DNA from: Mesostigma viride
Lineage: Eukaryota; Streptophyta; Mesostigmatophyceae; Mesostigmatales; Mesostigmataceae
Reading direction: 5' to 3'
Assembly (NCBI GenBank): GCA_009746045.1
Contig: RPFO01000264.1
Coordinates: 1,304,214-1,368,213 of the forward strand
Length of the DNA: 64,000 bases
In this document: one piece after another, positions 1 through 33,724 of the stretch
Layout of the letters: every line of letters starts with the position of its first letter
Numbering within the stretch: position 1 is the stretch's first letter
The notes under the pieces: model-generated
Told to the model about the DNA's origin: nothing
Databases searched by the model: none
What the model saw: the letters and a program-made list of their open reading frames with translations, nothing else
Program-made: the position numbers and the translations under genes

Positions 1-668
1 AAGGGCAGTTTGCCGAATGCTGGTACACAGCAAGCTGGAGAGGCGCTGAGCAGCTGTGCAATTTCAGGATTTCAACGTGGGACACCAGACACAAATGCAA
101 GGAAGCCCCAGGCGGTGCCTGGCATGGCCGACAGATTTGCCCTTGTATATTTGTGTTCGCTTGACAGAAAAAGCTTGAAGTTAAGCTTGTCGGAAATTAG
201 ACAATGTTATGATTGGTTGATGTCAAAAGTGGTGCTAGTGGCGCCAGCCGCCAGGCTTGAGCTTTGAGCAGTATAGAAGAATGAGCAACGAACCATGGTG
301 GTCGTTGTTCGTCCGTTTCTCTCCCTCACAACTAGTTTGTTGTCTTCATGGGGTTAAACTTCTCGAACAGCCCGGAGCAGCCCCCGTGAGTGGTTGCATG
401 TCGTTGCCATGACGATGGTTGATAGGATTGACAGTGGTTTGATCCGGTTGGGATGTTGTTGGCATTGTGGACGAGAAACGTTCTGCTGACCCGGGAACAG
501 TCCCGGGAAAGGGCCGGTTTGTCGTTGGCCAGTGTGCCAGTAACTGGGACATGAGCGCAGAGTCACACAGTTGATATAGATTATGACGTAAGTAAACACT
601 GTTTCGCCACAGTGGCGTCATGGTCGGTCTGTGGTGATTTCGATGGGTCTCAAGGGTAACGCGAGACT
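1..668. other. Sequence upstream of the methyltransferase-pol frame
   Basis: No recognisable protein domain. A stop codon (TAA at 657) lies in frame just before the ATG at 669, so the methyltransferase frame does not continue leftward. This stretch may hold the leader or LTR of the Ty3/gypsy element, but I found no matching repeat near its presumed 3' end (17880-18870), so LTRs are not assigned. No gag or protease of this element is visible, so these lie outside the window or are lost. Confidence 0.4.
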
Positions 669-1830
669 ATGCGCAAGCGGGTGACTGAGGCGGTCGTCAC
701 CGTTCCTCAGATGGCCAGCCATGGCCTCACTTTGGTGCAACCGGGTGTCTCGGAGGCCCAATGTAACTTTTCTGCTGCAATCTTACCGCAGGCCCCTGAT
801 TTTGCCAAGGGTGCGGTAGTGTTGGAACTGTTTGCGGGCATCGGAGGGGGCATTGCAGGCTTTTTGGCCGCAAGCGGCGTGTGCCGTAAACTCATCGCGG
901 TAGAGCCATCGCACAAGGCGCGTCAGGTGTACTTCAGTCACTGTGGCGTGTTGTCGCGAGAGTATCCCGCGCAGTTTCCGCCATCAGCATGGCGTGACCC
1001 GTTTGGGGAATGTCCTCAAGATATCCGAGCCATCGGTGAGGTGCAGGTGCAGCAGTTGTTGCGCAGGCATCATGCCATCGACTTGGTAATCGCGGGTTGG
1101 GAGTGCCAGGGCCTGAGCCAGGCAGGGCACGGGCGGGGGCTAGCGGATCCGCGTAGCGTGCTGTTCTGGGAACTGTTGCGTGTGGTGGGACTGTTGCAGT
1201 CGCGTCAGCCCCATCCGCCTGCGTATCTGTTTGAGAATGTTGTGGCGGGTGACAGCCCACATCAGGCGGTGCGGGAGGACTGGGCTACAATCGTGGCACT
1301 CCTGGGGGAGCCCATCGTGTGTGACAACGCAGGGCTGGGTGGGCTCACGCATCGTTTGCGTGCCTATTGGACCAACGTGGCGTGTGCGACCGGTGTGCAG
1401 GCGGTCTTGGGGGCGGTAGCAAGGCAGCATCCGAGTGTGTCTGCGGAGGTAGCATTGCCTTCCCACCTAGTCACGCAGAAGGTGGATAGCGAGGATCGCC
1501 CACCGTATGCACGCGTCAACCGGGTCGGGAGCCCCATGTGTGCACTGCCGACCCTGGTCAGTTACCAAGGGTCGACAGCATACCGTGATCGGGGTACGGG
1601 TCTTGTTTGGGACACTACCACCGGTCTGTTGGTGCAGCCACCCGCAGAATTTCGTGAGGCCAGCATGGGTTTTCATGTCGGGGCCTCGGCGCTGCCGGGC
1701 GTGCTCGAGAGTGAGCGCTGGTCTTTGATAGGCCAGGCTATGTCGGTGTTGCAGGTCCGGTATGTGCTGCTTGCATCAGTTGCCGTGCGCCAGTCTGGGG
1801 GGGCGTCCCCAGCCAATCCGCCTCAGCAGG
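669..1830 (+). CDS. C5 cytosine DNA methyltransferase domain, N-terminal part of a Ty3/gypsy pol frame
   Basis: About 387 residues with the conserved C5-methyltransferase motifs in order. Motif I (SAM binding) is ELFAGIGGG near residue 52. Motif IV carries the catalytic Cys as AGWECQGLS near residue 142. Motif VI is LFENV near residue 188. Motif VIII is HRLRAYWTN. After a variable target-recognition stretch come SMGF and a C-terminal motif X-like IGQAMSV. The enzyme would transfer methyl groups from SAM to cytosine C5. The open frame is broken at 1830 by a copia-type insertion and resumes in phase at 12003, where it runs into reverse transcriptase. It is therefore part of a retrotransposon polyprotein rather than a free-standing host gene. 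Motif IV has Glu before the catalytic Cys where Pro is usual. The domain itself has no internal stop. Confidence 0.88.
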
Positions 1831-2484
1831 ATTTGCGCAGCAACTTGTCAGCAGAGCTTGTGAGCTCCTGGTCCTTGCCGGCTGGAATGACCCTAGGCTG
1901 CTGGCTAGCAACCTTTATCCTCACACCAGGCCTACGACCCTCGATAGGCTCGCCACTCGTCGTGACGACCAAGGTTCGTGTGTGAAGACGCTCGTTGCCT
2001 CGTTGAGCCTCGAGCTATATGCAACCTCGTTCCATCCTTGTTCCTCGGTCATGAGCAACGCTGGGCAACGCTACATTGCCAGAGCCTCGTATCGCTGCCT
2101 TGCATCCTCGTTGCAGGCAGCATACAGGAATCTCTGGCTATCCTGTGTCTAGGACAGCACAGGACCTGCCACAGTCCTGCAAGGACTTACATCCTTGCAG
2201 ACCTGCTGGCTGGTTACTGGCTTCTACTAGCCACAGTACCGTTGAGTCCTCAGTACACTGTGTCCCAGTCACGTGAGAGTCCAGGCTAAGCCTGTGCAGG
2301 CACGGCCTGCCACGTGTCCTGTCCACTATGCCCTGAGTGTGCACCGCCCTCGCCCACCGGTCGGCAGTACTTCGGGACTTGATATCTTTCTCGTCCCTTG
2401 TCTGTTCTAGGCGGTTGACACGGCGTTGGAAAGGTCTCCTCAACCTGCATCCATCTAGCACATTGGTGCCCCAATATGCTAACT
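1831..2484 (-). repeat. 3' LTR of copia copy 1
   Basis: 654 bp, matching 11340-11997 with only a few substitutions and one 4-bp indel by eye. The small divergence implies recent insertion. Its first bases extend the methyltransferase frame artificially to a stop near 1985. Confidence 0.88.
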
Positions 2485-3419
2485 CCAACCCTTTCTTGTT
2501 TTGGAGCTTGGACCAGCCTGAGAACCTATCAGCCACTGTCCCCACAAGCCTTCAGACATCTGATCCCTCCCAGAGACCAGACCTGCCTTTTCTTTTGGAA
2601 CCTGAGGTGCCTCCAAATATTAGCTAGGCCTGCTCATTGGTTCAAAGGTTGCCCTCTGACCCACATGACATCCCAACCCTTTCTTTGGGAACCTGGTGTA
2701 GATTAAAGTTAGGTCTGCACTTAGTCAGAGGAGTTTGGATAGAGGAGTTCATGAACGTACTATTGTGAGTTCCTGGTCATCCAGTTATCACAGGCGCCCG
2801 TTCATATGGCGCCCGCCACGAAGCCTCCTTTATCTTTTAAAGCCTTCCAAAGACTGAGAGAGCCCTGACAAATGTTAGCCAACACATGGGGAGCCCATGT
2901 CCTCACTGAGTCTCACTCAGGATTCATACATGCCAGGCTGAGGTCAGCTGGGGAATCGAACCCCACCCCATATCCTCCAGGTTTGGATCAGCTCCTGGAA
3001 CTGAGCATCACAAACAACAAGACATGACAATAACAAGATTATGTTTTATTATAAAGGAGTATAACCCATCGTGAGGCCCCTGGCAACCACGTCCAACATG
3101 GTCACTCAACCAGGGATTTTATTAGCATGCAACAGGTTGGTTACAGAGAATATATACAAATGTACAGCAACCTGTTAGAGCCAACACTTGGGCTGCCCTT
3201 GCAGGGTCCATTCCATGAAGACCCAAGGCCCATTACAAAGTCCTTAAGACTCTTCTGCAGCTCCATGACAGAGCCAGGCGAAATTCTCAGCCAGGGGAGT
3301 GACTCCACCCTGACCCCTGTCCAGCAGAGTGTGTCTGAACTCTGAAGGACCTGCTGTCAGCCACCACGTGGCTGCCCAGCCCACTGGGATGCCTCCCACC
3401 TAGAGCAAGGCTGTTTGGT
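2485..3419 (-). other. 3' noncoding segment of copia copy 1
   Basis: Lies between the RNase H stop and the 3' LTR, with a diverged counterpart at 20060-21068 in copy 2. It contains paired GGCGCC boxes near 2790-2815. Near 2950-2980 the minus strand shows a tRNA T-arm/B-box-like sequence (GGTTCGATTCC). No protein is evident. Confidence 0.6.
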
Positions 3420-4873
3420 CTACTCTGGCCCTCCCCCCTTGGAGGCCATGAGCCCACGAAGCAAAGGGTATTGCAGCTCAGCCTTCTCCTCCAGCTTGGT
3501 GAGAGCATCTGCAGGGTTGTCCACGCCAGCCACATGTTCAATGTTAGCTAAGCAAGACATTTCCTTGAGCAACAAATAATCAAGGTCCCTGCTCCTGGCC
3601 AGCTGCCTGTGCACAAACTGCACCATGCCCATGCTGTCAGTTCTTACCAGTGTGTGCATCTGCAACCGACAGGAAGCCACTTGACATAGCTGGTAAAATA
3701 GCTCCCTCAAGTAAAGAGCAGTATGAAGCCCTTCACAGATTGCCCTGCACTCAGCAATGTCACTGCTGGGAGTTACCCTGTTCTGCAACCGACTGTACCA
3801 GCAGACCAGAGAGGACTGTTCCTGCACCAGGGATATTAATGCTGCTGCACGGCCCCTGACCTCTGTGACCTTCCTACTATCCATAGAACTGTCCACATAG
3901 AGCATCATGTCAAAAGGCCTGTACAAATCCAAAGGACCCAGGATGAGAGGGGGAGACATGCGAACAGCCTCTACCACTCTCTCAGCACCCACCTCAACCA
4001 GTTGGGAATCGGTCAACCGACTCAGTACCAACAGGTCAGGAGCACAAATGCTGGCCAGCCATGCCAACATACCTCGTATTGTTGCACATCTGGCCTGGGT
4101 GATGGGCTCCTGCAAGGCATCTATGATCTGCTGAGGATAATCCTTACCACCCTCCAGCTGGATGGACCATGTACCCTGCTGTTGGACCAAGGTCGCCTGC
4201 ATCCCACAAAACACCATGGGCTCATTCTCAACCATGTACTGGATCTTACCCAGTTCAAACCGTTTCTGGATCCTGGCCAGAGTCAACTCTTGCCAAGTGG
4301 GATGGCCCAGGAGATGCAGATCATCACCATGCAGGGAGGCAAACGCTGGCAGCCCCTCATAGCTACCCTGAAACAGACAAGGATCAACTGGAGAGACTGA
4401 GAGACCACAGACAGACCTGAGGTACTTCTCCAAGCTCTTTCTCCAGATGATGGGACTCGATCTAAGGCCTTCCACGCCTTTGAGAATCCTCAAATACCTC
4501 GTCTTCAGCTCTGCCCTCCACACTGCAGGCACCTTAACAAAGAAAGGGGGTATTGTGCGCCAAGTATCCTGTGCTTCCTGCTGATCACCCTTAAGAAAAG
4601 CCCTCTTGAAATCTACCAACACAGAGCTATAGGGTATCCCCTTCTGCCGAAAAGACAAATAAATGCACAACAAAATCCTCCATGTATCATGCAGCATCCC
4701 TGGTGTGTAAAGCTCCTCATCTGCTAATTGTCCAGTGCCATGGTACTCAGTCACAACTGGTCTGACATGTGGCACCTGCACGCCATCTACTTCCTTGAGC
4801 TTGAGGACAAACATCAATCTGAGCAGCTGGTGATCCTCAGGGAGGACATCCACAGGCTCTGCACAGTTGGCAA
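3420..4873 (-). CDS. Copia-type reverse transcriptase and RNase H (copy 1)
   Basis: An open frame of about 480 residues, read right to left. The N-terminal part has RT fingers/palm (LMFVLKLKEVDG, then SSVLVDFKRAFLKGD, the first catalytic Asp region). The catalytic box reads LHGDDLHLLG at about 4317-4331; copia RTs usually have YVDD. The C-terminal part is RNase H: YVDSSMD, IAECRAICEGL, RTDSMGMVQF, GVDNPADALTK. It would copy element RNA to DNA and degrade the template. Upstream the frame is cut at 4874-4877 by a TIR element and resumes at 6647. Copy 2 shows the uninterrupted order. The RT part itself is intact, unlike the integrase part. Confidence 0.88.
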
Positions 4874-4877
4874 CTAT

Positions 4878-6642
4878 TGTCTAATCACCAAGAAAATGTC
4901 CTCAAATGAGGACATTTTTAAGCATGGATACCATTTGTAATAACTAACACATGTCAACACATCCATGGGTACGGTATGGAACCATGTTCATTTATGATAT
5001 GTTCAAGAGTTGCAATGCTTAACATTCATGAAATATGCTCATTGTATAATTGTTTACGATTTATGAATGCAGGGGGGTCGCTACGCGAGTGACCAAATAG
5101 CACTCAAGTCAACAATATGCCAAGAAAGAAGGCATGGCCAGGTCATGGCTGGCCCTGAAAATGCACCCAGGGTGCCCACAACATGTCTATGTTACACCCT
5201 CGCAGTCCTAGACCCTGCAGCCTGCCAGGGGGGGGGGACAAAATGTAACTGGCAACCAGGGACCATGGTGCAGGCCAAACAGCAGGTGTAAAGCTAGCTC
5301 AGTCCAACGAGTGAAATATGAAGCAAATACTCGCCAAGGTTAGGTCCATGATCGTTAGTAGAGGCTCGGCTGCCACCACGGTGCTAAACCATGATGCTGA
5401 ACCCTTACGTTATATATGAAACATATATTGCAAAGAGGCACAAGTTGTAACACAAGCACAATTTAAACATGGCAAGTTCAAGTTTCCAAGCCAGTCTTGA
5501 TCACTTGGACATGAGTTGAAGCATTAGAAACATATGGGCAACATACCAGCAAGCCTTGAAAAACTTCTCAGCAACAAGGCAGTATATGTGTTGAATCAAA
5601 CTACCATGCACATCGCAATTAAGCACAGCGACTTCTATAGTTGCTGCTGTTTTGATAACGCAAGGCCGTTTACCTTTTCAGTGACGCAGCGGGAAAAGAA
5701 AGTACTGCCCAGCAAACTTCCGTTATTCCCCGGACATAAACGTAATCAAAACCACGAAGTTGGGCATTGAAAGCAACCGGAATTATCACGTCTGCGAGAG
5801 TTATAGGTTACAATCCGCTTAACACGCTTACTTAGAACGATGCGGTTGAGAATGACAGTCGGAACCTTGCTCTTGACGTGCGCCCAGGCCGCCAGCTGCG
5901 CGGGCCAGCTCAATAAATATATATTAAAGGACGGTGACGCGTGGGAAGCACCCAGCCTTGCGGCAAAAGAAAAATATGGCTCGCGCTCGCCCTGGTTTTC
6001 GCCAGGCGCGACTGCGACATCACGACGAAAAAATAGAGACTCTTTGACGCATGCAACTGCCCAGGTCCCTCTTCTCCCCATGTCGCCCATAAGCCCAGAA
6101 GCGTACCATAACCCATACTCGCGATATCCGCAGCGCCTGGGCGGAAAAAGAAATTGTAAAACCGAACTGCGAACTGACCTATCATGCGATCTACGTAGCT
6201 CTCAGATTTTCTTCAACAATGCCAAAATCCGTTCATGAACAAAAATTTCGACATATACAAAGCACCTGCACGTGAAGAATAGCATCTTCGAAATCACTAG
6301 ATGACGATCTAAAATGCTGTCTTCGTCCGGGGCAAAATAATGCCCTATAACATTCAGGCAAGCCTCGGAACTGGCACGACCCCATAGCCGCCACTCGACA
6401 AAACACTCGATTGCATTACGATGTTCTTGCTATTGTAGGTACTTTTCGTCGCCTCATATTTTCCAGGTACGGTCGACCCCTGTCGACCCCAGGGGCTTGG
6501 CGCGCTCAGTACCTATCCCAGTCTCGCGCCAAAACCCACCAAGTGACCCTAGGACCAAATTTGGCGCAAAAACCGCGCCCCTGACCCCCCCCGTCTCAAA
6601 CGAGGACTATGTCCTCAAATGAGGACATTTGGTTTTTGGACA
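4878..6642. mobile_element. Non-autonomous TIR DNA element inside copia copy 1
   Basis: 1,765 bp inserted in pol. The homologous site in copy 2 (near 22512) is uninterrupted. CTAT occurs on both sides (4874-4877 and 6643-6646), giving a 4-bp duplication (5 bp if the adjacent A is counted). Both ends start TGTC(T/C)AA, and about 15-20 bp inside each end is the palindrome TGTCCTCAAATGAGGACA (near 4896 and 6609). The interior is AT-rich on the left and GC-rich on the right, with no transposase. Superfamily not assigned. Confidence 0.8.
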
Positions 6643-6646
6643 CTAT

Positions 6647-7928
6647 CCACTCATGCCCAGAAGCAACAAAGCCAAGAGTCCATGCCTTAGCCATCTTGGG
6701 GCTTTGCATCATCTCCACTAGCTTGCGCCAAGGTACAGGACTCGTTCCTGGGATCTGGTACCTCTGCACACCCAACTCACGTGGGTCAAACGTAGTAGGG
6801 AGGATCAGCAGGTCCCCAGCAATGGGCTCCTTTGTATCAGGACCCTCTGCCTCTAGACCCCTCACAGCCCTTACAGCCACACTAAGACCCTGGGAGTAGC
6901 GATATCTCTGCAAGGGAAGGCGGCCCTGCCCTTCTAATGCTAGCTCCTCAGAGGATATCCTCACCCCTGGTAAGCACAAGAAGTTCTGACCTAGAATGGC
7001 AGGCCCCTGATACCCTTCAACCACACTGAACGTGGTGGGCACCCCCAGGATAGGCACACTCACTTCTCCCAAGATCTTCATGGACACATTCCCAGAGAAA
7101 TCAGACACAGCTAGGCAGCTAGGGGATGACCACTGCAAGCCTGCAGCATCCTCTACCCTTAGAATGGACACCTGTGAGTTGGTATCCACTTCTAGTGCTG
7201 GTGCCCCACATGACCCCCATCCCGTGAGCTTAGATACCTTGGGATCACGCTTGCTGTTCTGCAGAGCTCGAATGATGTCCGCCATAAGCAGCCCCCTGGA
7301 CTGTGGTGCAGCCCTGGCCACCTCTGGCCTTGTGACAGACGTCTCAGCAGACTCCTGCTCACCCTCATCCATCCAGGACAGACCATAATCCAAGCATGGT
7401 GGGTTAGCATCTGCTGCCTGGCTCTCATCCTGCTCATCTCCCTCCAAGGGAGGATCAGGGCCGTCTTCAGGCCAGATTGCAGTTGGCCTTCTCTCCTTGA
7501 CGTGAGCCCAGGATAGCCTGTACACGTGCTTGGGATTACTCTCCAAAGCCACCAGACAAGAATGGTTAGCTTCCTCAACATGGGTTACCTGCCCATCTTG
7601 CCACTTGCCACGCTTGCCTGGTAATGACGGTTCCTTCCACATCCTGACCCTCAGTCCCACCTGGGGCCTCAGCATTTTCCAACCCTTGTCCTTACGCCTC
7701 AATCTGGAAAACACCCTGTCTGCCTTCTTCAGGCAGGCTGCCACCACGTCCTGTGATAGCATACCAAACTGCAATGCCAGGGGAGAGACTGCCACACCAT
7801 CATAGTAATAGGTTACCCTGTGGTTAAGCTGCTCCTCAATCCCCTTACACCAAGCTGCTTTCTCTAGAGCTGATGCCACAACAGGCACACTCCTAGCTGC
7901 TAGCACCACTGTTTTTACTTCACGTATA
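6647..7928 (-). pseudogene. Copia pol middle part: integrase C-half and aspartic-protease-like domain (copy 1)
   Basis: Read right to left. The frame resumes after a 1-nt deletion near 7945 relative to copy 2. It holds the end of integrase: the catalytic Glu region (AVERS in copy 2), LNHRVTYYYDGV, and a basic C-terminal domain with GKRGKWQDGQV. About 200 residues on comes a retropepsin-like segment: EVDTNSQVSIL (about 7160-7190), then VPILGVPTTF and GPAILGQNFL (near 6985-7010). These correspond to the active-site Asp turn and the ILGxDFL strand of retroviral-type proteases, but the active site reads D-T-N-S rather than D-T/S-G-A/S. The domain lies between integrase and RT. The end is cut by the TIR element. 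Confidence 0.72.
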
Positions 7929-7935
7929 GATCTCT

Positions 7936-8775
7936 CTACAGCTCCCTGCTGCCCATGGATTCCCTAGGGACCACTACCAACTTACAAGGAAGCTGGTCAG
8001 CCAGCTTGATCAAGCAGTCAAACTGCAAGTCAGCTTGCACCTTGGTGTACACCCCAAAGCCTGGCAACAAAGACTGGAGACCCATCAACAGCTGATGCTC
8101 CTGCATTCCAGGAAGAATGGTCAGCAACCTATATCTGCTAAACCTATCCACCCCCACCAACAGATACATGCCCCTGATGTGTTGGATGTCCACCTGGATA
8201 TCCCCCCGCTCTCTAGCAGGTTCTCTGGCATGGGACTGTGGGAGGCGAACAGCATTCTCCTGACAGACACAATTCTGAGCAGCTGCACTGCAGGCCTCTA
8301 GCAAAGGCTCCTTGCCAATCTTCCAAGCAAACATCTCTGCCTGCTTAGAGTGACCAAAGATATGGTGTAGAGTGTTTCCAGCCTGAGCATAGCTCAACCC
8401 CCTGTCAGCCTGGCTGCACAGAGAGGAACGTGACAAAGACTGTGTGCTTGGGATAGCACGACCCACCTGCTGTTCTCTTGCTCCAGGGACCTCCTCCAAG
8501 GTAGCTCGGCTCCCAGAGCCAGCCCCGGTTCCCACAGAAGCTGCAGGTCCTTCCAGTCTGGCGGCTTGACTCCCAGAGTCAACCCCAACAACTGGAGACC
8601 CTGCACCTGCCACAGGCACAGGGAATTCCACTGCTGCAGCAGCGTTATTGCAATCATTGAGTGGAAGCACCTCATCATTCCCAACCCCTTGCTGCTGCAC
8701 AAGAGGGACACCCCCATTACTATGTACAACTGTTCGTCCCACTAGGGGTGATTGACTATTTACAGGGGACAACAT
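7936..8775 (-). pseudogene. Copia pol start: zinc-binding domain and integrase core (copy 1)
   Basis: 280 residues read right to left. A low-complexity N-terminus is followed by a pre-integrase zinc-binding region (LHHIFGHS with later Cys residues), then the integrase core with DIQHIRG (first Asp) and QADLQFD (second Asp). Comparison with copy 2 shows a 1-nt loss near 7945 that replaces the catalytic Glu segment with a premature stop. Integrase would insert element cDNA into host DNA. The frame is broken here, so the copy is probably not autonomous. Confidence 0.78.
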
Positions 8776-8781
8776 CTCAAG

Positions 8782-10131
8782 TCATGGCTTACCCACCTGG
8801 CCAGAGCCTGCTCCAGCAGACTTGGCCTGGTCTGGGCAGTCACGTCGCCAATGACCCGTCCTGCCACATCCAAAGCACTTGTCATCCTTCCCAGCAGCAG
8901 CCTTCTTCAGGCCACCCTGGTTCTGGCTGCTCTGACTGGCCTGGGTGCCCTGGCCCTGGCTCTTGCCTTGCCCTTGGCCACCCTTGTTCTGCTGACCACC
9001 CTGGTGACCACCAGCCTGCTGCTGACCCTTGCCTTTGGATCCCTGCTGCTGGCCCTTGCCACCCTGGTTACCATTCTGCCTGCGCCTGTTAGCCCTCTGA
9101 CGCCTACTAGGTCTGGTTTCTCCCTGAGCACCCTGCCCAGGGGCGTCACCATGGACCTGATGAGCGGAGGCTGAAGGGGCACCAGTCACCTGGATTGCCT
9201 TGCAAGCAGCATTGTCAGATGGACGGATATTGAAAATAACCTTTTGCAAGGCTGGCCACGTCCCATCTGTCTGATCAGCAAACATCCTAGCTGCATTTCT
9301 CCCATCCACACTCAGCCCCATGCGATCCAGGAAGTAATCTGCCACTGCTCTATCAGTCAGATTGAAGCCATGCTTGGCCCCCTTCTCCCTGATGCGTGTG
9401 AGCCGCTGCAGCTCCTCAGCTATTGTGCCCTTGATCTCAAAGGTATCATAGCTGAGCTTATAGTGATTAGTGAGGTTGAGTACCTTATCAGAAAACTCCT
9501 GACGTAGGCCCTCTAGGAACTGAGACCAAGTCAGCTTGTCCTTGACAGCCTGCCTAGCCTTGTCCCTCACCCTCTCACTTGAATCCCTATTAGTCGTGGA
9601 TGTGTGGAATACCTGCACAAGGTTGACAGTGGGATCTACAGAGCATGAAACTAGCTCCATATCCTCCAACCACTTGTCTAGCTCTTCCTGTCCCACAGGA
9701 GGCTTGAGAGGCTTCTGGCCATTCATCACAGCCACAGCACTCATATGAGGTCTAGTCCCAGGCAAAGCACGAGGGTCACTGCCAATGACAGCAGCTCCTA
9801 CTGGTGCTAATGGCGCAGGAACATGAGCTGCAGGAACACCAGACGGAGGCACACATGGTCTCTTACCAGGTGCTTGCCGTTCAGCATCATTCTGGCCCTC
9901 CCCCGTCAGCACCACGCCGTCGGTTGGCCACCCTGCACGCTCCTCCCCTTGTGCCACCTCTTTCCTCTTCCGGTTGGACGCCCTCCTGCCATTGACGCCC
10001 TCTGCCGTTGGGATTGCCTGTCCCTCTGGCACGACGTTGGCGGGGCTCCCGTGTCTGCCCTTGCCTCACCCCCGCCATCCCCCGCTCCCGCCCCGCTCCC
10101 GCTGCCGCCCCGCGCGTGTTACGAAGCATTA
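8782..10131 (-). CDS. Gag with CCHC zinc knuckle (copy 1)
   Basis: The main open part is 8782-10032; the start near 10131 (MLRNTRG) is in another frame, and copy 2 shows the two joined, so a frameshift lies near 10030. The protein has a basic N-terminus, an alpha-helical capsid-like middle (KWLEDMELV, NLVQVFH, DKVLNLTNHYKLSYD, DYFLDRMGLSVDGRN), a long Gly/Gln/Lys-rich linker, and one CCHC knuckle (CFGCGRTGHWRRDC). Gag packages element RNA into particles. The stop falls just before the pol frame at 8775. Confidence 0.85.
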
Positions 10132-10191
10132 TAGAATACCACAGAAAACACACGCAGATATGGCCGCTGGAACCCACTCAGGCTCACGCAC

Positions 10192-11316
10192 TTACTCCAG
10201 ACGAGGCCGCCTCCTGGCTTGCACTCGCCTGCCCCTCCTCACGGTCTGGACGCTGCTCAACACCCTCAGCAACCGTGTGGCTGCTGCTGCCTCTGCGACA
10301 ATCTGGAGGTCTGGGTTAAACTCTCCCAGCACGCAGGTCACAGGTCGCCCGTCTTCCTTGCGTTCGACTGGATGTTGTGTCTCGCCTGGGTTGCGATGCC
10401 AAGCAAGATTGCGCAACCACCGCTTACCGCCGCCGACAAGCTCGTTCTGCTCGCCTCGGCCGTAACGGTCGTACTCGTGAGTCGCCTCACGAGGGATATG
10501 CAGATCAGCTCTCTGCCTTGCCTCGTAGGTCTCGGTAGTGCCGTCGCCCTCGTTTATCTGCTGGGCTGAGCGCTTGACGGAGCCCTCTGGCTTGTCAGTC
10601 CACTCAAAATGGACGTCTTCAGGCGTCTTCTCGACCCCTGCGACAATCTCCACCTCCGGACCCCACGCAGTGGTGGTTTCCGGCCTCGGTGTATCAAGCC
10701 TGAGTATACCCCGAAAGGCTGCGTGGTAATATAGAACCTGTCTGCGTACCCTCTCGACTCTTGCAAAAGGACAGCAACAAGATTCTCAATGGTTTGGGCA
10801 AATACCTCGCCGTGCTCCAAGGATTTACCGTCTCCCGAGCACGCGCGTTCCGGATGATGTCGGCGTCTGGTACCCCCTCTCCTAGCACTGCTGTCGCCAC
10901 CCAGTGGTTAAACAGTCGGGTGCTGCCGAGCGCTGTTGCCACAATCTGGCTAAGCGCCTCCCTGGCTAGGTCGAGACCGGCAAGCGTGATATGGGCGCCC
11001 TGATAAGCGACCTCCACACGATTAGCAGTTTCAGCTAGCGCGTCACGTAGCGCACCAACTCTTCCACCGCCACTCGCCCCGTCTCACCTGGAGAAATCAC
11101 GACGCGAGCCCGTTGAATAATCGGGTCCGCCGCCGCTGGCCTGTTGCCTCCCCCACTCACCGCCACCCACCCCTCTTCTGCCAAGTGCCTCGCTACGTAG
11201 GCCGCTTGCACGAATGTTGGAGCGTTTGCTTGGTTACGGTAGGGGAAAAACGCTTGCGCGTCTCTCTGCTCGTTCGCCTCACCAGCACCGTGGCTGCTTG
11301 ACGATGAACCAGACAT
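10192..11316 (-). pseudogene. Extra 5' ORF1 of the copia family (copy 1)
   Basis: Read right to left from ATG 11316. Three frame segments (11316-11035, 11017-10694, 10653-10192) align by eye to the less broken ORF1 of copy 2 (31623-30473). Shared stretches include EEGWVAV/EGGWVAV, ISPGETGRV/TSPGETGRV, EVAYQGAHIT/EVAYQGGHVT, NHWVAT, and QQINEGDGT/QQIDEGDGT. It lies between the 5' LTR and gag, where copia elements normally have no gene. I recognise no domain. Confidence 0.7.
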
Positions 11317-11339
11317 GAAAGCGTGGAAGCAATAGTACG

Positions 11340-11997
11340 ATTTGCGCAGCAACTCGTCAGCAGAGCTTGTGAGCTCCTGGTCCTTGCCGGCTGGAATGAC
11401 CCTAGGCTGCTGGCTAGCAACCTTTATCCTCACACCAGGCCTACGACCCTCGATAGGCTCGCCACTCGTCGTGACGACCAAGGTTCGTGTGTGAAGACGC
11501 TCGTTGCCTTGTTGAGCCTCGAGCTATATGCAACCTCGTTCCATCCTTGTTCCTCGGTCATGAGCAACGCTGGGCAACGCTACATTGCCAGAGCCTCGTA
11601 TCGCTGCCTTGCATCCTCGTTGCAGGCAGCATACAGGAATCTCTGGCTATCCTGTGTCTAGGACAGCACAGGACCTGCCACAGTCCTGCAAGGACTTACA
11701 TCCTTGCAGACCTGCTGGCTGGTTACTGGCTTCTACTAGCCACTGTCAGTACCGTTGAGTCCTCAGTACACTGTGTCCCAGTCACGTGAGAGTCCAGGCT
11801 AAGCCTGTGCAGGCACGGCCTGCCACGTGTCCTGTCCACTATGCCCTGAGTGTGCACCGCCCTCGCCCACCGGTCGGCAGTACTTCGGGACTTGATATCT
11901 TTCTCGTCCCTTGTCTGTTCTAGGCGGTTGACACGGCGTTGGAAAGGTCTCCTCAACCTGCATCCATCTAGCACATTGGTGCCCCAATATGCTAACT
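11340..11997 (-). repeat. 5' LTR of copia copy 1
   Basis: 658 bp, nearly identical to 1831-2484. ORF1 starts 24 bp to its left. The right end GCTAACT abuts the target duplication GCAGG, after which the gypsy pol frame resumes. Confidence 0.88.
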
Positions 11998-12002
11998 GCA
12001 GG

Positions 12003-13492
12003 TTGAGGCGCGTGCAGCCAAACTGAAGCGCCCTGCAGCGACGGGGACTTCATCAGCATGGGGGTGGCGTCTGCGACAGGTGTGGACTATCATTCTCATG
12101 ACCGCCCTGCTGACCAGCACCGTGCTGGCCGGCGAGCCCACGCTGCATCGGGTAATACACCGTGCGGCACGCGAGGCTCGGGCGGTGGGTGTCACACCAG
12201 GTGTGGCAGCCTTTTCCTTGTTCCACGACGATGCGGCTAGGGCGCCGCATCTTGAGGCACATGCGGTAGCTGTGGGTGATCCCGCGGATATGCACCCCTG
12301 GGCTATTGGCGAACACCTTTCTGATGCGCAGCGCTCAGCCATGCTAAAGTGGCTAGGCACTGCAAGGGGGGCCTTCGCTTTCACAAGTGATGAACTGGGG
12401 TGTTTCAATGGTGGGACCATGCGTGTTCCATTGGACACTAACACTCCTTTGTTCCGACGCCAGCATTGCCTGAGTCAGGCCGAGTTGGATTTTGTAGCCG
12501 AGCAATGCAAGGAGTTAGAGGATGCCGGTATCATCAGGCAATCTTCCTCCATCTATGCTGCTGCCGTTGTCGTTGCGCCCAAGAAGGACGCTATCACCGG
12601 GGCATGGACGGGTATGCGCATGGCCACCGATCTGCGGTTGCTGAATGCACACACACCCGTGGACCGTTACCCCATGCCACGTGTGGATGATGTCTTGGAT
12701 AAGATATCTCCTCATGTGAAGTTTGTGTCCTCGCTGGACCTGCGTAGCGGCTTTCATCAGATCGCAGTTGCGCCGGAGGATCAGCGGAAGCTTGCATTCT
12801 GGGGGGGCGGCAATTTGTATGAGTGGGTGCGCATGCCGTTTGGGCACCGCAACGCTAGTGCTGTTTTCCAACGAGCTATGGACAAAGTGCTTGCAGGTCT
12901 TCCTTTCGCCGCTTGTTACATTGATGATGTAATCGTCTATAGCGCGACATTTGAGGAGCACCTGGCGCACTTGGAGCAGGTTCGCTTGGCTCTCGAGGAG
13001 CATAATAATATGCGGCTGCACCCTGAGAAGTGCAAGTTCGCCCAGCGGACCCTCTCATTCCTTGGTCATCAGATTGTGCCGGGTGGCCGGACGCCTGATG
13101 CCGCCAAGGTCGAATCCATTGCGCAGGCCGCCGTCCCCACGGATGTCTCAGGGGTGCGGGCGTATTTGGGTTTGGCTGGCTATTACCGAGGTTACATTGA
13201 GAACTTCAGCAGCAAGGTGAAGCCCTTGACCGAGTTACTCAAGAAGGGGTGCGTGTGGGCGTGGGGTCCCGCACAGCAACGCGCCATCGAGACAATCAAG
13301 CAGGAGCTCACGCCGGCACCGATTCTGCGCGCCCCTGACTATGCTTTGCCATTTGTGTTATATACCGACTGGTCCAAGGTAGGACTGGGTGCGGTCTTGG
13401 CGCAAAAGGATGGTGATGGGCGCGAGCACGTTATTGCTTATGCTAGTCGCAGCAACAACCCAGCGGAGAGCCGGTATTCTTCCTATGACTGA
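12003..13492 (+). CDS. Ty3/gypsy reverse transcriptase, continuing the methyltransferase frame
   Basis: With the copia element and one duplication removed, codon 1830+12003-12004 joins the methyltransferase to this frame. The next 25 codons to 12080 contain no stop. RT motifs follow: a [10 protein letters not shown] region, [12 protein letters not shown] (first catalytic Asp), [17 protein letters not shown], the box [10 protein letters not shown] (Y-I-D-D), then [10 protein letters not shown] and the start of RNase H ([18 protein letters not shown]). It would synthesise cDNA. The joined frame is about 880 residues, methyltransferase plus RT. It ends in a frameshift in RNase H at 13492. Confidence 0.9.
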
Positions 13493-14502
13493 GGGGGAGG
13501 CACTGGCTGTGGTGTGGGCCATCAAGCACTTTCGCCCGTATTTATTTGGGCGCGTGTTTACTCTGGTGACAGACCACCAGCCGCTTCAGTGGCTATAATG
13601 ACCAACACCAACCTGACGGGTAAGCTCGCCCGATGGGCCATGATTATCCAGGAGTACCACATGATCATTGTGCATCGGGCCGGCAAGGACCATGTCAACG
13701 CCGATGTGCTATCCCGATATGCCATGCCTACCACTGTTGACCACACTGGAGCCCGGGCCATGGGTGCCGAGGGCTCGTCGGGTTCTGTGGTCTTTGTGAA
13801 CGCTGCTGGCTGGGTATGCGGCCGACGATGAGGAGGAGGCGTGGTGGCGCAGTGTCGAGTACTCTGTAGCGGACTTTGGCATCAGCGACGACCCGGTGCG
13901 GCTGTCGCCATTCGCGCCATCCAAAGCTGTGTGCGCTATGGAAGAGGGTAGGTCTCTGTCCTTTGACATTGATCCTTCTCTGCAGCAGCTGATCGCTGTG
14001 CAGGCTCTCTTAGCGCGTAGCTCTCTTGCTGATTGCTACACCGCTGATATCTGGCTAGATGGTCGAGTTTTGGAGCAAGTGCAGGGTGCTGTCTTGACTC
14101 CTACTCCAGTCGATTGGACTCCTGCTCAGAAGGCGACGGAGTTGAACAGGGTGCAGCACAGGGCTGCAACCTATGGTTGGGAAGATGGGGTTTTGTACAA
14201 GCTGTTGGGCAAGCGTAGGGTGGTCGTCCCACCGCCTGATAAGCGCGTTGCTATAGTGCAGGCGTACCACGAGCGGTATGGTCACTTGGGTGGCAATCGC
14301 ACGCTCAGCCTCGTACGGACCAGCTATATTGGTGGAATAACATGCGACACACGGTGGCCCAGGTAGTGGCCAGCTGTGTCTCGTGTGCTCGAACCAAGGC
14401 TAACTTTAGCGCAGATCATGGTGCCAAGGAGCTGATGCCGCTTCCCATCAAGGGCTTGTTTTATCGCTGGCACGTCGATCTGTGCGGGCCGTTTCAGGAG
14501 AG
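13493..14502 (+). pseudogene. Ty3/gypsy RNase H end and integrase N-terminus, frameshifted
   Basis: Homology continues in shifting frames: [20 protein letters not shown] and TDHQPLQWL, then NLTGKLARWAMIIQEY and GKDHVNADVLSR. After a spacer come an HHCC integrase zinc finger (HERYGHLGGNRTL ... CVSCARTKANF) and the start of the catalytic core (WHVDLCGPF, first Asp). At least three frameshifts or stops are seen (near 13491, 13597 and 14335), so the element is dead here. The frame is then cut at 14507 by the foldback element. Confidence 0.82.
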
Positions 14503-14507
14503 CCCTG

Positions 14508-14585
14508 AGTTATAAACAACGATTCCTTGCGGAATCGGTACTAAGCGCTTAGTACCGATTCCGCAAGGAATCGTTGTATATAACT
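14508..14585. repeat. Palindrome 1 of the foldback element
   Basis: A 78-bp palindrome centred on AAGCGCTT. The arms pair a GATTCC(T)TGCGGAATCG motif that is itself a small palindrome, so it can form a cruciform with branched arms. Confidence 0.85.
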
Positions 14586-15091
14586 AAAACTTTTGCTTGC
14601 GCCGGCAAGGCTAAGGCCGATACTAGTCGGGTCATCGAATTGGCTATTCGATTATCGAAGTTGCCTATTCGACCATCGAACTTTCCTATTCGATTATCGA
14701 ATTTTCCTTATTCGATTGTCGAAATTTCCTATTCGACAGGGGGTCAGAGGCCAGCGGCCTATCATACTCGGTGCCCAGCGAGCCACCGAACTAGGCCTAG
14801 TCGATTATAGCGAGACATCGCGTGGAACTTAGCCGATTTCGGGGACTTAGCCGATTTTCGGAGCGACGTCGAACAACACAGATGATTAGCCGGTTGAGCA
14901 CATCATATCAGTCGAATAGCTAGCGCTGGTACTCCGCCTAGTAAGCGGAGAGCACTTGCCTATTTCGATTAACATATTAGGCCGAACGATTAGCGTCCGC
15001 AACGTTATTCGCATTACTAGGCGAAAAATCCACCCCCGGAACGATCCTAGCGGGATTCGAACCCGGGATGCCGGCGTGTCGCAACAGTCTT

Positions 15092-15168
15092 AGTTATATA
15101 CATCGATTCCTGCGGAATCGACACTAAGCGCTTAGTACCGATTCCGCAAGGAATCGTTGTATATAACT
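15092..15168. repeat. Palindrome 2 of the foldback element
   Basis: Second copy at the head-to-head junction of modules 1 and 2, same AAGCGCTT centre. The left arm differs slightly from the right (CATCGATTCC versus AACGATTCC). Confidence 0.85.
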
Positions 15169-15674
15169 AAGACTGTTGCGACACGCCGGCATCCCGGGTT
15201 CGAATCCCGCTAGGATCGTTCCGGGGGTGGATTTTTCGCCTAGTAATGCGAATAACGTTGCGGACGCTAATCGTTCGGCCTAATATGTTAATCGAAATAG
15301 GCAAGTGCTCTCCGCTTACTAGGCGGAGTACCAGCGCTAGCTATTCGACTGATATGATGTGCTCAACCGGCTAATCATCTGTGTTGTTCGACGTCGCTCC
15401 GAAAATCGGCTAAGTCCCCGAAATCGGCTAATTTCCACGCGATGTCTCGCTATAATCGACTAGGCCTAGTTCGGTGGCTCGCTGGGCACCGAGTATGATA
15501 GGCCGCTGGCCTCTGACCCCCTGTCGAATAGGAAATTTCGACAATCGAATAAGGAAAATTCGATAATCGAATAGGAAAGTTCGATGGTCGAATAGGCAAC
15601 TTCGATAATCGAATAGCCAATTCGATGACCCGACTAGTATCGGCCTTAGCCTTGCCGGCGCAAGCAAAAGTTTT

Positions 15675-15751
15675 AGTTATATACAACGATTCCTGACGGA
15701 ATCGATACTAAGCGCTTAGTGTCGATTCCGCAGGAATCGATGTTTATAACT
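15675..15751. repeat. Palindrome 3 of the foldback element
   Basis: Third copy, at the junction of modules 2 and 3, same centre with a few mismatches between arms. Confidence 0.85.
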
Positions 15752-16262
15752 AAAACTTTTGCTTGCGCCGGCAAGGCTAAGGCCGATACTAGTCGGGTCA
15801 TCGAATTGGCTATTCGATTATCGAAGTTGCCTATTCGACCATCGAACTTTCCTATTCGATTATCGAATTTTCCTTATTCGATTGTCGAAATTTCCTATTC
15901 GACAGGGGGTCAGAGGCCAGCGGCCTATCATACTCGGTGCCCAGCGAGCCACCGAACTAGGCCTAGTCGATTATAGCGAGACATCGCGTGGAAATTAGCC
16001 GATTTCGGGGACTTAGCCGATTTTCGGAGCGACGTCGAACAACACAGATGATTAGCCGGTTGAGCACATCATATCAGTCGAATAGCTAGCGCTAGTACTC
16101 CGCCTAGTAAGCGGAGAGCACTTGCCTTTTTCGATTAACATAGCACATTAGGCCGAACGATTAGCGTCCGCAACGTTATTCGCATTTCTAGGCGAAAAAT
16201 CCACCCCCGGAACGATCCCAGCGGGATTCGAACCCGGGATGCCGGCGTGTCGCAACAGTCTT

Positions 16263-16338
16263 AGTTATAAACATCGATTCCTGCGGAATCGACACTAAGC
16301 GCTTAGTTTCGATTCCGCAGGAATCGATGTTTATAACT
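16263..16338. repeat. Palindrome 4 of the foldback element
   Basis: Right-terminal copy. Its outer end GTTTATAACT is the complement of the element's left end and abuts the CCCTG duplication. Confidence 0.85.
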
Positions 16339-16343
16339 CCCTG

Positions 16344-16998
16344 ACGGCAACCTCTATGTCATGGTATGCGTGGAGAGCTTTAGCAAATGGGTTGACTTGA
16401 TCCCCATTGCTGACAAGCATGCCGCTACAGTACCACAGCGAAGCATTTTGCGGACATCATGCATCACCAGGTTTGGGGCTCCCGCGGAGGTAGTCACGGA
16501 CCAGGGTGGTGAGTTCAGGGGTGAGTTCCAGGAGTTGCTGGATGGATGTCTTATTGATCACCGTCGCACTTCTCGGGAGCATCCTCAGTCAGGCCAATGG
16601 TTTGGCTGAGAGATTGGTGCAGACCGTCAAGCAGGCGCTGCGCAAGTGGAGCCTGCAGGTGCCGGAGTCGGCCAGGTGGGATCGCGAGTTGGCATGGATT
16701 GCCATGGGTTATCGCATGTCTCCCCAGGAGTCTCTCGCTACCTTCTCCCCGTACATAATTCCTTCTGTTCGGGCGTAATCCTCTTTTGCCTACGGAGGCA
16801 CAGGTTGCGCACCCCGAACCCATGGCCTTCGACAACGCTCAGCAATTTTTTGTTGAGGTGCTGGCCAGGGCAGAGACTTTTAAGAAAGTCATGCCCATCG
16901 CGATGAACAACTTGTTCATTGCTCAGCACAGGGATTCCCTGCGCTACGCTCAGCGCCGGGGGGGCGCATACATGGCTCGCCAGCTGCGGTTTAGTTAG
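16344..16998 (+). pseudogene. Ty3/gypsy integrase catalytic core, second part
   Basis: Continues the core after the foldback insertion: VCVESFSKWVDLIPI, EVVTDQGGEF (second catalytic Asp) and, after a frameshift near 16550, NGLAERLVQTVKQALRKW (catalytic Glu). Then WIAMGYRMSPQES (typical end of core) and a C-terminal stretch to a stop at 16998. All three D-D-E residues are recognisable when both insertions and shifts are allowed for. Confidence 0.85.
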
Positions 16999-17045
16999 GC
17001 CAGGGCAGTATGTTTTCCTGCGCACTCAGCTGAATTAAGCACACT

Positions 17046-17444
17046 TTGGATGTGGAGGCGGGGCCCACCATTTTGCGCATTGTGGCTATCAAACCATCGG
17101 GAGTGGCAATTTTGGAGGGCGCTGACGGGAGCCGTACGACTGACAACCTCAGCAATCTCAGTCCCTGCTCGCTGCCCAATTTGGTCCACGACCTCCAACC
17201 GCACACGTCTCGCCGAGTCAAGGACGCCCAGTGTCAGGTTTGTCACCGGGTCGATCAGGCGGAGTCCATGTTATTGTGTGATCAGTGTAACTGTGGTTGG
17301 CACATGCAGTGCTTGCAGCCAGTGGTCACCAGCATTCCGGAGGGGGATTGGTTTTGTCCAGTGTGCACCGCTGCGCAGTTTACCTCCCGCAGCTTGACTG
17401 CGGTCACCTCTGCCCTTGTCTTGGTACGATCGCTGTCTTCGTGA
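17046..17444 (+). CDS. Integrase C-terminal region with PHD finger
   Basis: 133 residues, open. After a GPTILRIVAIKPSG stretch lies a complete C4-H-C3 PHD finger at about 17232-17367: CQVC, LLCDQC, GWHMQC, WFCPVC. PHD fingers commonly read histone H3 tails. Here it sits where chromoviruses carry a chromodomain, which suggests it steers integration to particular chromatin (inference). A stop codon separates it from the integrase core in this decayed copy. The last 20 residues are unrecognised. Confidence 0.83.
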   Translation: MDVEAGPTILRIVAIKPSGVAILEGADGSRTTDNLSNLSPCSLPNLVHDLQPHTSRRVKDAQCQVCHRVDQAESMLLCDQCNCGWHMQCLQPVVTSIPEGDWFCPVCTAAQFTSRSLTAVTSALVLVRSLSS

Positions 17445-18869
17445 TGGGGCCGGTCGCCAGCGAGGGGGGAATCATGGGACAGGTCCTCGCCCACCCCACA
17501 GGGCATGCAGTTAAGGCAGGCACGTCAGCTCAGCTCATTTGGGTTTTACCAAATTAAGCTGAGTGGCCAGCCGCCATGGTGGCGCCGGAGATTGTGGCAC
17601 GCAGACGCGACAGCTGTCACGGACGCGAGCTATGTCATCCGGGCGCCCACTATGCACAAGACCGGTGACGTGCGCAAGGAATTTGTTTTCTACGCATTTT
17701 CGACAAAGGCTAGTGGCCGGGGGGGACACTAGCACTTGCAGCATAAGAGCGGACGAAAGTGTACGTGCACGCGCGCCGGGCCAGGCACAGCTGGGCGCGC
17801 AGCACTGGCTTGAGCGGACGGCAGCACAAGTGCGCAGCGTCGAGAGGATCATACGCGTGTTAGTGGACAGCTGGAGCTGAAGCTGGACTGCTGGACTTCA
17901 ACAGCGCCGAGGCTATTGACAGGCCAGGTGTCTTTGTGGTGTAGAATAGCGGGTCAACGTTATGAGGACTGGACAGAAAACGGAAAAGGACAATTTGCGG
18001 TGCGGAGCCAGATCGCTGGAATGAATGCGAAATCGCTGGCAGCCCTACAAAGGGATTTCTTCTAGAAAGGAACGATTAGACGCAAATTATGTTTGCTGGG
18101 CCACTCACACGCAAGGTGTGAGCGTGCAGATTGTCTGAAGGATATTATGCTTCGACCTTGGTGGACGTGACTCAATGCCAGACATTCCCAGGGACAGAAA
18201 TGCCGGAGCCTCTAGGAGATGAGATCGGCAACAGGGTAGCAATTTAGATTTGTCGGGATGCCTTCCTGCTTTTGTTGGCATGTGTGGTAGTAGAAAGCCA
18301 GGACGGCAACTGGAATGCGGTTTCTATTTGCATGGTTCAGGCAGCAAGATAGTTTTGGCATTCCTGGCTGGACTGACAAGTGTGGCATGTGTCATGCGTG
18401 TGGCATGACGAATGGTTTGGTTCATAGTCGAAGAGGACTCTCACGCAGCGTGTAGTCTCTTCGAGTCTCTCGTTAGTGGCCTTCGTGTTTCTCCCTTTCC
18501 TTGGGAGCAAGGCCGGTAGCATGTCATGGAGCGCTGCCTAACTGCGGGCTCGTGAGTGCATCGATATTGAGACTATCAACGTGTTGTAATTGTATTAACT
18601 TTCTCAATAAATTCCGCATGTGCGGCTTCATCATCAGACTGTGCAAAGTGTGTGTTGTGAAAGCATTGTTCTATAGCAGGGGAGGCAAAAGCATCATCTT
18701 GCACCATCATATTGTCGCAATTAGAGTAGTTGGAGCGTCTAGCTAACGCCCCAGCAAGGATATTCAAACGCGGCACGCGACGGTACACAAGGGGATCAAT
18801 AAGGTGGTCATCAGGCACGAGGGACAGTTCCTTGTCCTCGGCTGAGAGCCCTCTTTTCATTACTCGAAG
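17445..18869. other. 3' end of the gypsy element and unassigned sequence
   Basis: Open fragments at 17505-17732 and 17563-17880 show no recognised domain. From 17880 to 18870 I see no confident gene. A minus-strand open stretch (18576-18860, with CFHNTHFAQSDDEAAH) looks protein-like but I do not recognise it. The gypsy 3' LTR should lie here but is not identified. Confidence 0.35.
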
Positions 18870-19412
18870 AGACTATGCGCAAACGCGACACGAGTGTTTG
18901 ACACGCCAACGGTGTGCTCTGACCACCGGTTGGTGCGCGCGACCCTTCGGCTCCGGTTCCACGTCCCCGCGCGCCGCGCCCCAGTGGTCCGCCCTGACTG
19001 GTCTGCTCTACGTCCGGTCAAGGGAGATCCTGAGGACTGGACGGACGCCGAACACGAGCGGAACCGGTGCCGACGGGAGTACCTGTCGGCCATGGACGCC
19101 CGGGCGGACGTCGATGAGCTGGACAAGGGTGCCCCCAACGCCGCCATTTTTGCGGGCTTTGCGGCCCGTGCCCCGTTGCTGGCGGCCCGGCACCTGCCGG
19201 CCATGCCCCGCCGCCGCCCCGGCCCGCTCTACCGCCAGGACCCCAAGGTCTTGGCCGCCCGGCACCGCCTCAAGCGTAACCGGGACCCGCTGCAGAAACC
19301 AGTGCTCAAGGCCGCCCTCGTGGAGGCCTACGAGCACGCTCAGGACGCGGAGGCGGCCCAGTGCATCGCGGATGCCAAGGCCTGCCAGGCTCGCAACCAG
19401 GGCAAGGACATG
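18870..19412 (+). pseudogene. LINE ORF2: end of the APE-type endonuclease and linker
   Basis: The frame reads VFDTPTVCSDHRLVRATLRLRF, with the SDH motif that ends apurinic-type LINE endonucleases, followed by a helical linker to GKDM. The LINE is 5'-truncated near 18870. It is cut at 19412 by copia copy 2 and continues in frame at 32309 (GKDM then WYHLDRLGG). Confidence 0.75.
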
Positions 19413-32710: not shown

Positions 32711-33724
32711 AAGCTGGACTGTTGCAGGCAGCATGTAGACCATGAAAATAGACCACCCACAAAAATTGGGCTCATTCTGAGCTCAAATGGTGACATGTGA
32801 CAGCATACATGTGCAGTTTTTCGTCATTTTCCCCCTTTACTTACATGAAACAAATATGAATAGTGGACAAATGAACTCATTTCAGGCTGGATTCTTGCAG
32901 GCAGCATCTAGACCATGAAAATAGACCACCCACAAAAATTGGGCTCATTCTGAGCTCAAATGGTGACATGTGACAGCATACATGTGCAGTTTTTCGTCAT
33001 TTTCCCCCTTTTCTTACATGAAACAAATATGAATAGTGAACAAATGAACTCATATCAGGCTGGATTCTTGCAGGCAGCATGTAGACCATGAAAATAGACC
33101 ACCCACAAAATTTGGGCTCATTCTGAGCTCAAATGGTGACATGTGACAGCATACATGTGCAGTTTTTCGTCATTTTCCCCCTTTACTTACATGAAACAAA
33201 TATGAATAGTGGACAAATGAACTCATTTCAGGCTGGATTCTTGCAGGCAGCATTTATACCATGAAAATAGACCACCCACAAAAATTGGGCTCATTCTGAG
33301 CTCAAATGGTGACATGTGACAGCATACATGTGCAGTTTTTCGTCATTTTCCCCCTTTTCTTACATGAAACAAATATGAATAGTGAACAAATGAACTCATA
33401 TCAGGCTGGATTCTTGCAGGCAGCATTTATACCATGAAAATAGACCACCCACAAAAATTGGGCTCATTCTGAGCTCAAATGGTGACATGTGACAGCATAC
33501 ATGTGCAGTTTTTCGTCATTTTCCCCCTTTTCTTACATGAAACAAATATGAATAGTGAACAAATGAACTCATTTCAGGCTGGATTCTTGCAGGCAGCATC
33601 TAGACCATGAAAATAGACCACCCACAAAAATTGGGCTCATTCTGAGCTCAAATGGTGACATGTGACAGCATACATGTGCAGTTTTTCGTGATTTTCTCGG
33701 TTAACTTCCATGAAACAAATATGA
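32711..33724. repeat. 173-bp subterminal tandem array, left
   Basis: About six units of 173 bp, each with AGGCTGGATTCTTGCAGGC and a run of TGACATGTGACAGCATACAT. The array continues at 42043-42090 after the chromovirus. Same units, inverted, at the right end. Confidence 0.92.

Follow-up and report, generated by a model that had tools for sequence, protein, structure and literature searches.

Does the window, by which we mean the whole stretch of 64,000 nucleotides of Mesostigma viride DNA that was analysed (contig RPFO01000264.1, positions 1,304,214 to 1,368,213), carry a retrotransposon with its own DNA methyltransferase (DNMT), or have two unrelated fragments come to lie side by side? An open reading frame (ORF) at 660-1982 on the plus strand matches PF00145 (Pfam, E-value 9.9e-12, above the curated cut-off), and positions 11996-13489 match RVT_1 (1.8e-26) and RNase H. 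The preliminary description, made from the letters alone, had read the two as one frame, with the DNMT ahead of the reverse transcriptase (RT) of a Ty3/gypsy element, once a copia element and one copy of the duplication GCAGG were removed. We found the DNMT, the copia insertion, the duplication and the RT at the positions given there. The target duplication (5 bp) lies at 1826-1830 and at 11998-12002, and because the insertion is 10167 = 3 x 3389 nucleotides long the frame across it is preserved. By itself the window copy, interrupted and truncated, would also suit an accident of nested insertion that brought a gypsy fragment next to a methyltransferase unrelated to it.

To answer the question we turned to other copies in the assembly that contains the window (440 Mb, 2243 contigs). 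An rbcL in this assembly encodes a RuBisCO whose best solved matches, 9hvm and 1gk8 (the latter from Chlamydomonas), score 950 bits, ahead of land-plant and cyanobacterial structures at 933-867 bits; this agrees with a green-algal host, although the contig with the rbcL might in principle be foreign. We scored the best 106 of 528 candidates for the window DNMT, among which decayed copies are under-represented, and the best 114 of 3680 candidates for the RT (identity at least 99%). Apart from the window itself the DNMT matches were 97-98% identical. None of the 106 had an internal stop, 30 lay in open frames of 2074 amino acids (aa) and 19 in frames of 1042 aa. When the best RT rows were matched against the best DNMT rows, 71 of the 114 had a DNMT row 1738-1740 bp upstream. 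The spacing was 1740 bp in 47 of these 71 pairs, and 47 pairs showed the same open-frame length at both partners (2074 aa in 30 of them). The uninterrupted copies that the preliminary description proposed to look for are therefore present in the same assembly. We are close to certain that the joined DNMT-RT frame is real, as it is demonstrated in uninterrupted copies and no excision is needed. The 71 pairs at a spacing of 1738-1740 bp, 47 of them in one frame, refute a chance juxtaposition, which retains practically no probability. Copies with a break, or with the DNMT apart from the RT, were encountered as well (24 of the 71 pairs are shifted and at one locus the DNMT stands alone), and the in-frame class with 47 of 71 is the larger one. 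A further 43 of the 114 RT rows had no DNMT row among the best 106 of 528, 9 of them in 2074-aa frames. These unpaired rows say little because both lists comprise the best-scoring candidates. At first look the RT had more candidates than the DNMT (3680 compared to 522-528), a hint that gypsy elements related to this one but devoid of a DNMT may exist.

Seven copies (cA-cG) were examined at length. Five of them (cA, cB, cC, cD and cF) have an ORF1 of 615 aa and an ORF2 of 2074 aa; cG lacks a long ORF1 and its ORF2 measures 2073 aa, and in cE a frame of 2092 aa starts in gag and is interrupted by an insertion ahead of the PHD finger. In the one intact copy whose pol was scanned with Pfam, the gag ORF precedes a pol in which a zinc knuckle and a protease-like region are followed by DNMT, RT and RNase H, and these by a DDE integrase and a PHD finger. 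The matches were CCHC at residues 32-48 (weak), DNMT at 550-690, RVT_1 at 1079-1243, RNase H at 1306-1435, H2C2 at 1625-1681, rve at 1702-1794 and PHD at 2005-2049 (E-value 8.5e-9). The order RT-RNase H-integrase, with DDE and H2C2, is that of a Ty3/gypsy pol; the protease was recognised by eye, as a DSGA stretch near residue 312, and had no Pfam protease match. ORF1 had no Pfam match either and was assigned to gag by its position. In the intact copy scanned we found no match to a tyrosine recombinase in ORF1 or ORF2 and none to a chromodomain, and instead of these rve and the PHD finger, respectively. The preliminary description had placed the DNMT at the N-terminus. In the intact copy read it is preceded by ∼498 pol residues with the zinc knuckle and the DSGA stretch; the impression of an N-terminal DNMT arose from the window copy, which starts at the DNMT start codon.

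The repeats are split and follow the order A-coding-B-A-B in cA-cD and, by blastn, also in cE. Repeat A measures ∼1140 bp and starts TGTCACGG, repeat B has 143 bp and ends GCGACA. The element is thus bounded by A and B and not by the two terminal long terminal repeats (LTRs) typical of Ty3/gypsy elements. Both ends were located by exact pattern in five of the seven copies, while the other two gave no left-end match. All five show TG..CA ends and a target duplication of 4 bp (TAGT, AGCT, AGGT, CCCA and AACC), as expected of a DDE integrase. In six of the seven copies the joint between B1 and A2 reads CA-GC-TG, which resembles the circle junction of unprocessed retroviral ends. The insertions are recent, because A1 and A2 are nearly identical (99.5-99.7% in cA-cD, 98.4% in cE). 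By eye no TGG start of a tRNA primer-binding site was seen after A1; a systematic search was not made. Copy cF is an A-coding-B insertion which ends at the first B, without A2-B2, and has AACC on either side (loci L042 and L043). Copies cA and cE are 98.9% identical in pol and 33% over 118 aa in their gag ORFs, so that gag may have been exchanged between these subtypes. Taken as a whole this is, close to certainly, a Ty3/gypsy-type retrotransposon with split repeats, a gag ORF, a pol which holds a DNMT between the protease-like region and the RT, and a PHD finger after the integrase.

The window copy can now be read against these copies. Its element homology (blastn against an intact copy) starts at 667 and continues to 1830, and the element does not end at 13492, where the preliminary description stops, since it extends via a second insertion to about 18875. 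Its parts are:

667-1830, plus strand: DNMT domain (pol residues ∼499-886) and 5' start of the window copy; PF00145, blastn 98.2% to an intact copy.
1831-11997, minus strand: copia-type LTR retrotransposon inside the DNMT element; direct repeats, junction letters, weak RVT_2 (below cut-off) and CCHC matches.
1831-2484 (about), minus strand: left copia LTR; direct repeats, blastn junctions.
11340-11997 (about), minus strand: right copia LTR; direct repeats, blastn junctions.
11998-14508, plus strand: linker, RT, RNase H and start of the integrase of the DNMT element; Pfam, blastn 98.3%, tblastn with intact pol.
14509-16338, no strand: second insertion, palindromic, with a flanking duplication of ∼6 bp; inverted repeats, blastn gap against an intact copy.
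16339-17469, plus strand: remainder of the integrase plus the C-terminal region, where the reading frame changes in the window copy; blastn, tblastn.
17232-17366, plus strand: PHD finger (pol residues 2005-2049), reads intact in the window copy; PF00628 on intact pol, tblastn, frame print.
17470-17612, plus strand: B repeat (B1), 143 bp; blastn 99.3%.
17615-18862, plus strand: A repeat (A2) carrying ∼98 bp of additional sequence, a feature shared with copy cE; blastn.

The palindromic insertion at 14509-16338 consists of nearly perfect inverted arms of 584 bp and lies within the integrase. A stop ends the frame 11996-13492, and tblastn showed several frame changes farther on. The window copy is without gag, the protease-like region and the left A repeat, and comparing window positions 1-666 and the preceding 9.9 kb with copies cA and cE revealed no element sequence left of 667. 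It is 5'-truncated at the DNMT start codon, and the form of its A repeat is that of cE. At both of its ends we observed GAGACTATGCGCAA (663-676 and 18868-18881). It looks like a rearranged rather than a normal insertion: allowing at most one mismatch, its right-end joint occurs once in the genome, at the window copy itself. A short subfamily without gag, where the DNMT would come directly after A, was also considered and was rejected because this joint was found nowhere else. The break at the DNMT start codon is shared with the locus where the DNMT stands alone (L029, G000:C1434:15539-16699, reverse strand), which runs from the start codon to ∼30 nt beyond the domain. There the DNMT occupies the loop of an inverted repeat whose arms (∼346 bp, 73%) are rich in a GTGTCACG minisatellite, and capture by a foldback element is possible.

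Is the DNMT maintained? Among the best 110 of 522 DNMT candidates 80 rows belong to the family of the window copy (family 1) and 30 to a second family (family 2, identity at least 87%, several rows partial), which is known from one stretch of 1.5 kb ending at the residues just before the RT. Over 490 residues, from the DNMT to just before the RT, the two families are 56% identical, and in both the DNMT lies ahead of the linker. Six of the 30 family-2 rows lie in frames of 1642 aa, a length from which we infer that the RT would be in the same frame as the DNMT there too; stops inside were seen in four of the 30. Between the families the DNMT is 64% identical in amino acids, with a proportion of synonymous differences (pS) of 0.74 and of nonsynonymous differences (pN) of 0.25, and the linker is 38% identical. 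The pN/pS ratio of the DNMT, 0.09, is rough as the synonymous sites are near saturation. These values show a constraint on the DNMT between the two families. When 30 family-1 loci were set against a single intact copy, 16 of the distinct changes were synonymous and 13 nonsynonymous (ratio 0.28); the loci had been chosen by protein score, a selection that disfavours nonsynonymous changes. A recently captured passenger, hitch-hiking in one successful family, would explain why the scored family-1 copies are 97-98% identical (there was little time for decay), why one DNMT sits by itself inside an inverted repeat and why four family-2 rows contain stops. The second family weakens this explanation, being only 64% identical with nearly saturated synonymous sites and the same DNMT-linker order, and we consider it very improbable.

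The preliminary description credited the DNMT with a complete C5-methyltransferase motif set. The PF00145 match, the catalytic Cys and ENV bear this out, but "complete" was too strong: motif IV reads GWECQG, i.e. ECQ and not PCQ, in families 1 and 2. PCQ is the usual motif IV of C5-cytosine methyltransferases and was present in all five phage relatives that were aligned. Both families retain the catalytic Cys, ENV and the HRxRAxWTN stretch. With the element DNMT alone the PDB matches were weak (4onj, a tobacco DRM, as well as HhaI and DRM2). Relatives were found in phages (37 records) and plasmids (27), all below 60% identity, the closest in phages with 39% over ∼105 residues; none was confirmed in viral contigs or prokaryote genome contigs. 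A profile of both families and five phage enzymes ranked DNMT3A/3B first (5.6e-41), ahead of HhaI (4.4e-33) and DNMT1 (3e-9), a ranking that is carried largely by the phage rows. The Dnmt3-like reading obtained with this profile was not upheld by a tree of 12 sequences. In this tree the element DNMTs sit apart from DNMT3A, their branch being 1.6-2.2 substitutions per site long. The family-1 DNMT shares 25-28% identity with the five phage enzymes, 24% with DNMT3A and 21-25% with four bacterial ones. This small tree placed the element DNMT in no class. An AlphaFold model of the DNMT, built on a 5-row alignment, was discarded (mean pLDDT 35).

The ECQ motif in both families, the long branch and the identity of 21-28% with ten relatives from outside the element are also what one would expect if the fold had been kept for another job, such as nucleic-acid binding, RNA methylation or spacing within the polyprotein, and were no longer a DNA methyltransferase. 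Against this stand the catalytic Cys, ENV and HRxRAxWTN, kept across families that are 64% identical, and the PF00145 match above the curated cut-off. We regard such a change of function as unlikely, though it deserves consideration.

At the C-terminal end of pol, the last 124 residues have their best PDB matches in the PHD fingers of BAZ2B, Lid, CHD4, BAZ2A, WSTF and ATXR5, which presumably read histone H3 unmodified at lysine 4 (H3K4). In the genome search with the PHD finger the best 150 of 1092 candidates were all 100% identical, and for that reason these 150 belong to family 1.

We then asked whether the DNA carries a trace of methylation. The element has an observed/expected CpG ratio of 0.85. 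The interior of the copia element stands at 0.46, and two other parts of the window, 19-30 kb and 42-64 kb, at 0.49 and 0.73, respectively. With a single intact copy as reference, the window copy shows C-to-T (or G-to-A) changes at 17 of 806 CpG positions and at 12 of 2630 other C/G positions. When 30 loci, which are not independent of each other, are pooled, the corresponding counts are 147 of 16670 and 157 of 49484. This excess fits CpG methylation of the element DNA, as judged from the pattern of changes, and does not tell which enzyme made it. It would, together with the constraint on the DNMT, also suit an enzyme that acts on chromosomes, where it would methylate the insertion site or sibling copies, silence them, limit the copy number and spare the host. 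The ratio of 0.46 in the copia element suggests that other repeats are methylated too, and slowed retrotransposition as well as insertion-site effects are raised by de Mendoza et al. 2018 (PMC5890265). However, many very recent copies are unlike a tight self-limitation, and we rate a chromosomal role as a minor possibility.

Our best guess, to which we assign a probability of roughly 0.5 as a full explanation, is that the element methylates its own complementary DNA (cDNA) before integration. Gag-Pol would package the DNMT together with the RT in particles, and the DNMT would methylate the double-stranded cDNA during its synthesis. The PHD finger, if of the kind that reads unmodified H3K4, would direct the integrase to quiet chromatin. 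The new copy would then arrive with the host's methylation mark and could avoid an attack on unmethylated DNA or harmful expression. Methylation of its own cDNA by such an element was already proposed in the discussion of PMC5890265.

Several points weigh against this explanation. The DNMT is known from its sequence alone and its activity is predicted, with Glu preceding the catalytic Cys in both families. The binding specificity of the PHD finger is putative, assigned only from resemblance. In 24 of the 71 pairs the distance between DNMT and RT is 1 or 2 nt shorter, and because of this shift these copies, as assembled, need frameshifting for a fusion. One copy of the 1042-aa class that was read has a one-nucleotide difference in a short run between DNMT and RT, which could have been inherited or stem from faulty assembly. 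The decay of CpG could stem from host enzymes alone, and it was a single intact copy, not an outgroup, that served to polarise the changes. Finally, the DNMT domain of the related KnitGypsy-Dnmt3 element gave no methylation in yeast, a result which its authors call inconclusive (PMC5890265).

DNA methylation is usually a weapon against transposons; here a transposon encodes its own methyltransferase, and the PHD finger is a second chromatin tool within the same polyprotein. With many intact, recent copies the role of a transposon DNMT is testable in a living alga. Rather tentatively, and with less weight than the explanation above, we consider a further independent capture, in a green alga that is not a charophyte: its gypsy-type element would have acquired an orphan (non-Dnmt3) DNMT whose catalytic motif is altered, and combined this with an integrase-borne PHD reader of unmodified H3K4. 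If true, a selfish element would have rebuilt the reader-writer logic of animal DNMT3 and would deliver pre-methylated copies into quiet chromatin.

Other features were observed in the window and the assembly. Two arrays of apparently the same 173-bp unit, with ∼6 copies each, lie in opposite orientation at window positions 32713-33724 and 50260-51314. Positions 36834-38057 hold another gypsy-type ORF with protease and H2C2 and no RT match between them, and 42862-45042 on the minus strand hold an ORF of 727 aa with DUF7869. On many short contigs PF00145 matches with identical scores occurred in frames of 364, 313 and 325 aa, probably other mobile, viral or foreign methyltransferases.

How does the element relate to known systems? 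Retrotransposon DNMTs in streptophytes and dinoflagellates are cited in PMC12344493, where orphan DNMT clades and ChloroDNMTs are named too. In the open-licence literature, to the extent of its accessible text, we found no DNMT-bearing gypsy element with a PHD finger and none named from a chlorophyte. Any claim to a first is limited because PMC6338049 mentions, in general terms, methylase-encoding Ty3/Gypsy and DIRS elements in green algae. The suggestion of a new arrangement is doubtful as well, since Klebsormidium nitens has a published Gypsy-type element, KnitGypsy-Dnmt3, with DIRS-like repeats and a DNMT encoded in its Pol ORF (PMC5890265).

SymbioLINE-Dnmt shares a DNMT ahead of the RT, but is a LINE with separate ORFs and a DNMT of an orphan clade (PMC5890265). 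SymbioDIRS-Dnmt3 resembles our element in having DNMT and RT in one ORF, there in more than one domain order, and in the A-coding-B-A-B repeats; its DNMT, of a DIRS-type retrotransposon, methylates CpG de novo in yeast, and it differs in its tyrosine recombinase where we found a DDE integrase (PMC5890265). Chromoviruses, i.e. Ty3/gypsy elements with a chromodomain, likewise carry a chromatin-reader domain behind the integrase, as far as the available descriptions go, whereas here a PHD finger takes the place of the chromodomain and split repeats and a DNMT are added. The closest known system is KnitGypsy-Dnmt3, compared by its text description in PMC5890265, the main text of which does not contain the word PHD. 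Both have the DNMT in the Pol ORF, A-coding-B-A-B repeats and a DNMT under purifying selection (Ka/Ks < 0.2 in Klebsormidium). KnitGypsy-Dnmt3 is of the Dnmt3 class, whereas the present DNMT is unplaced, has the ECQ motif and is accompanied by a C-terminal PHD finger. Given the Klebsormidium precedent the element is a variant of an already described rare type, in which the host, the PHD finger and the ECQ motif look new.

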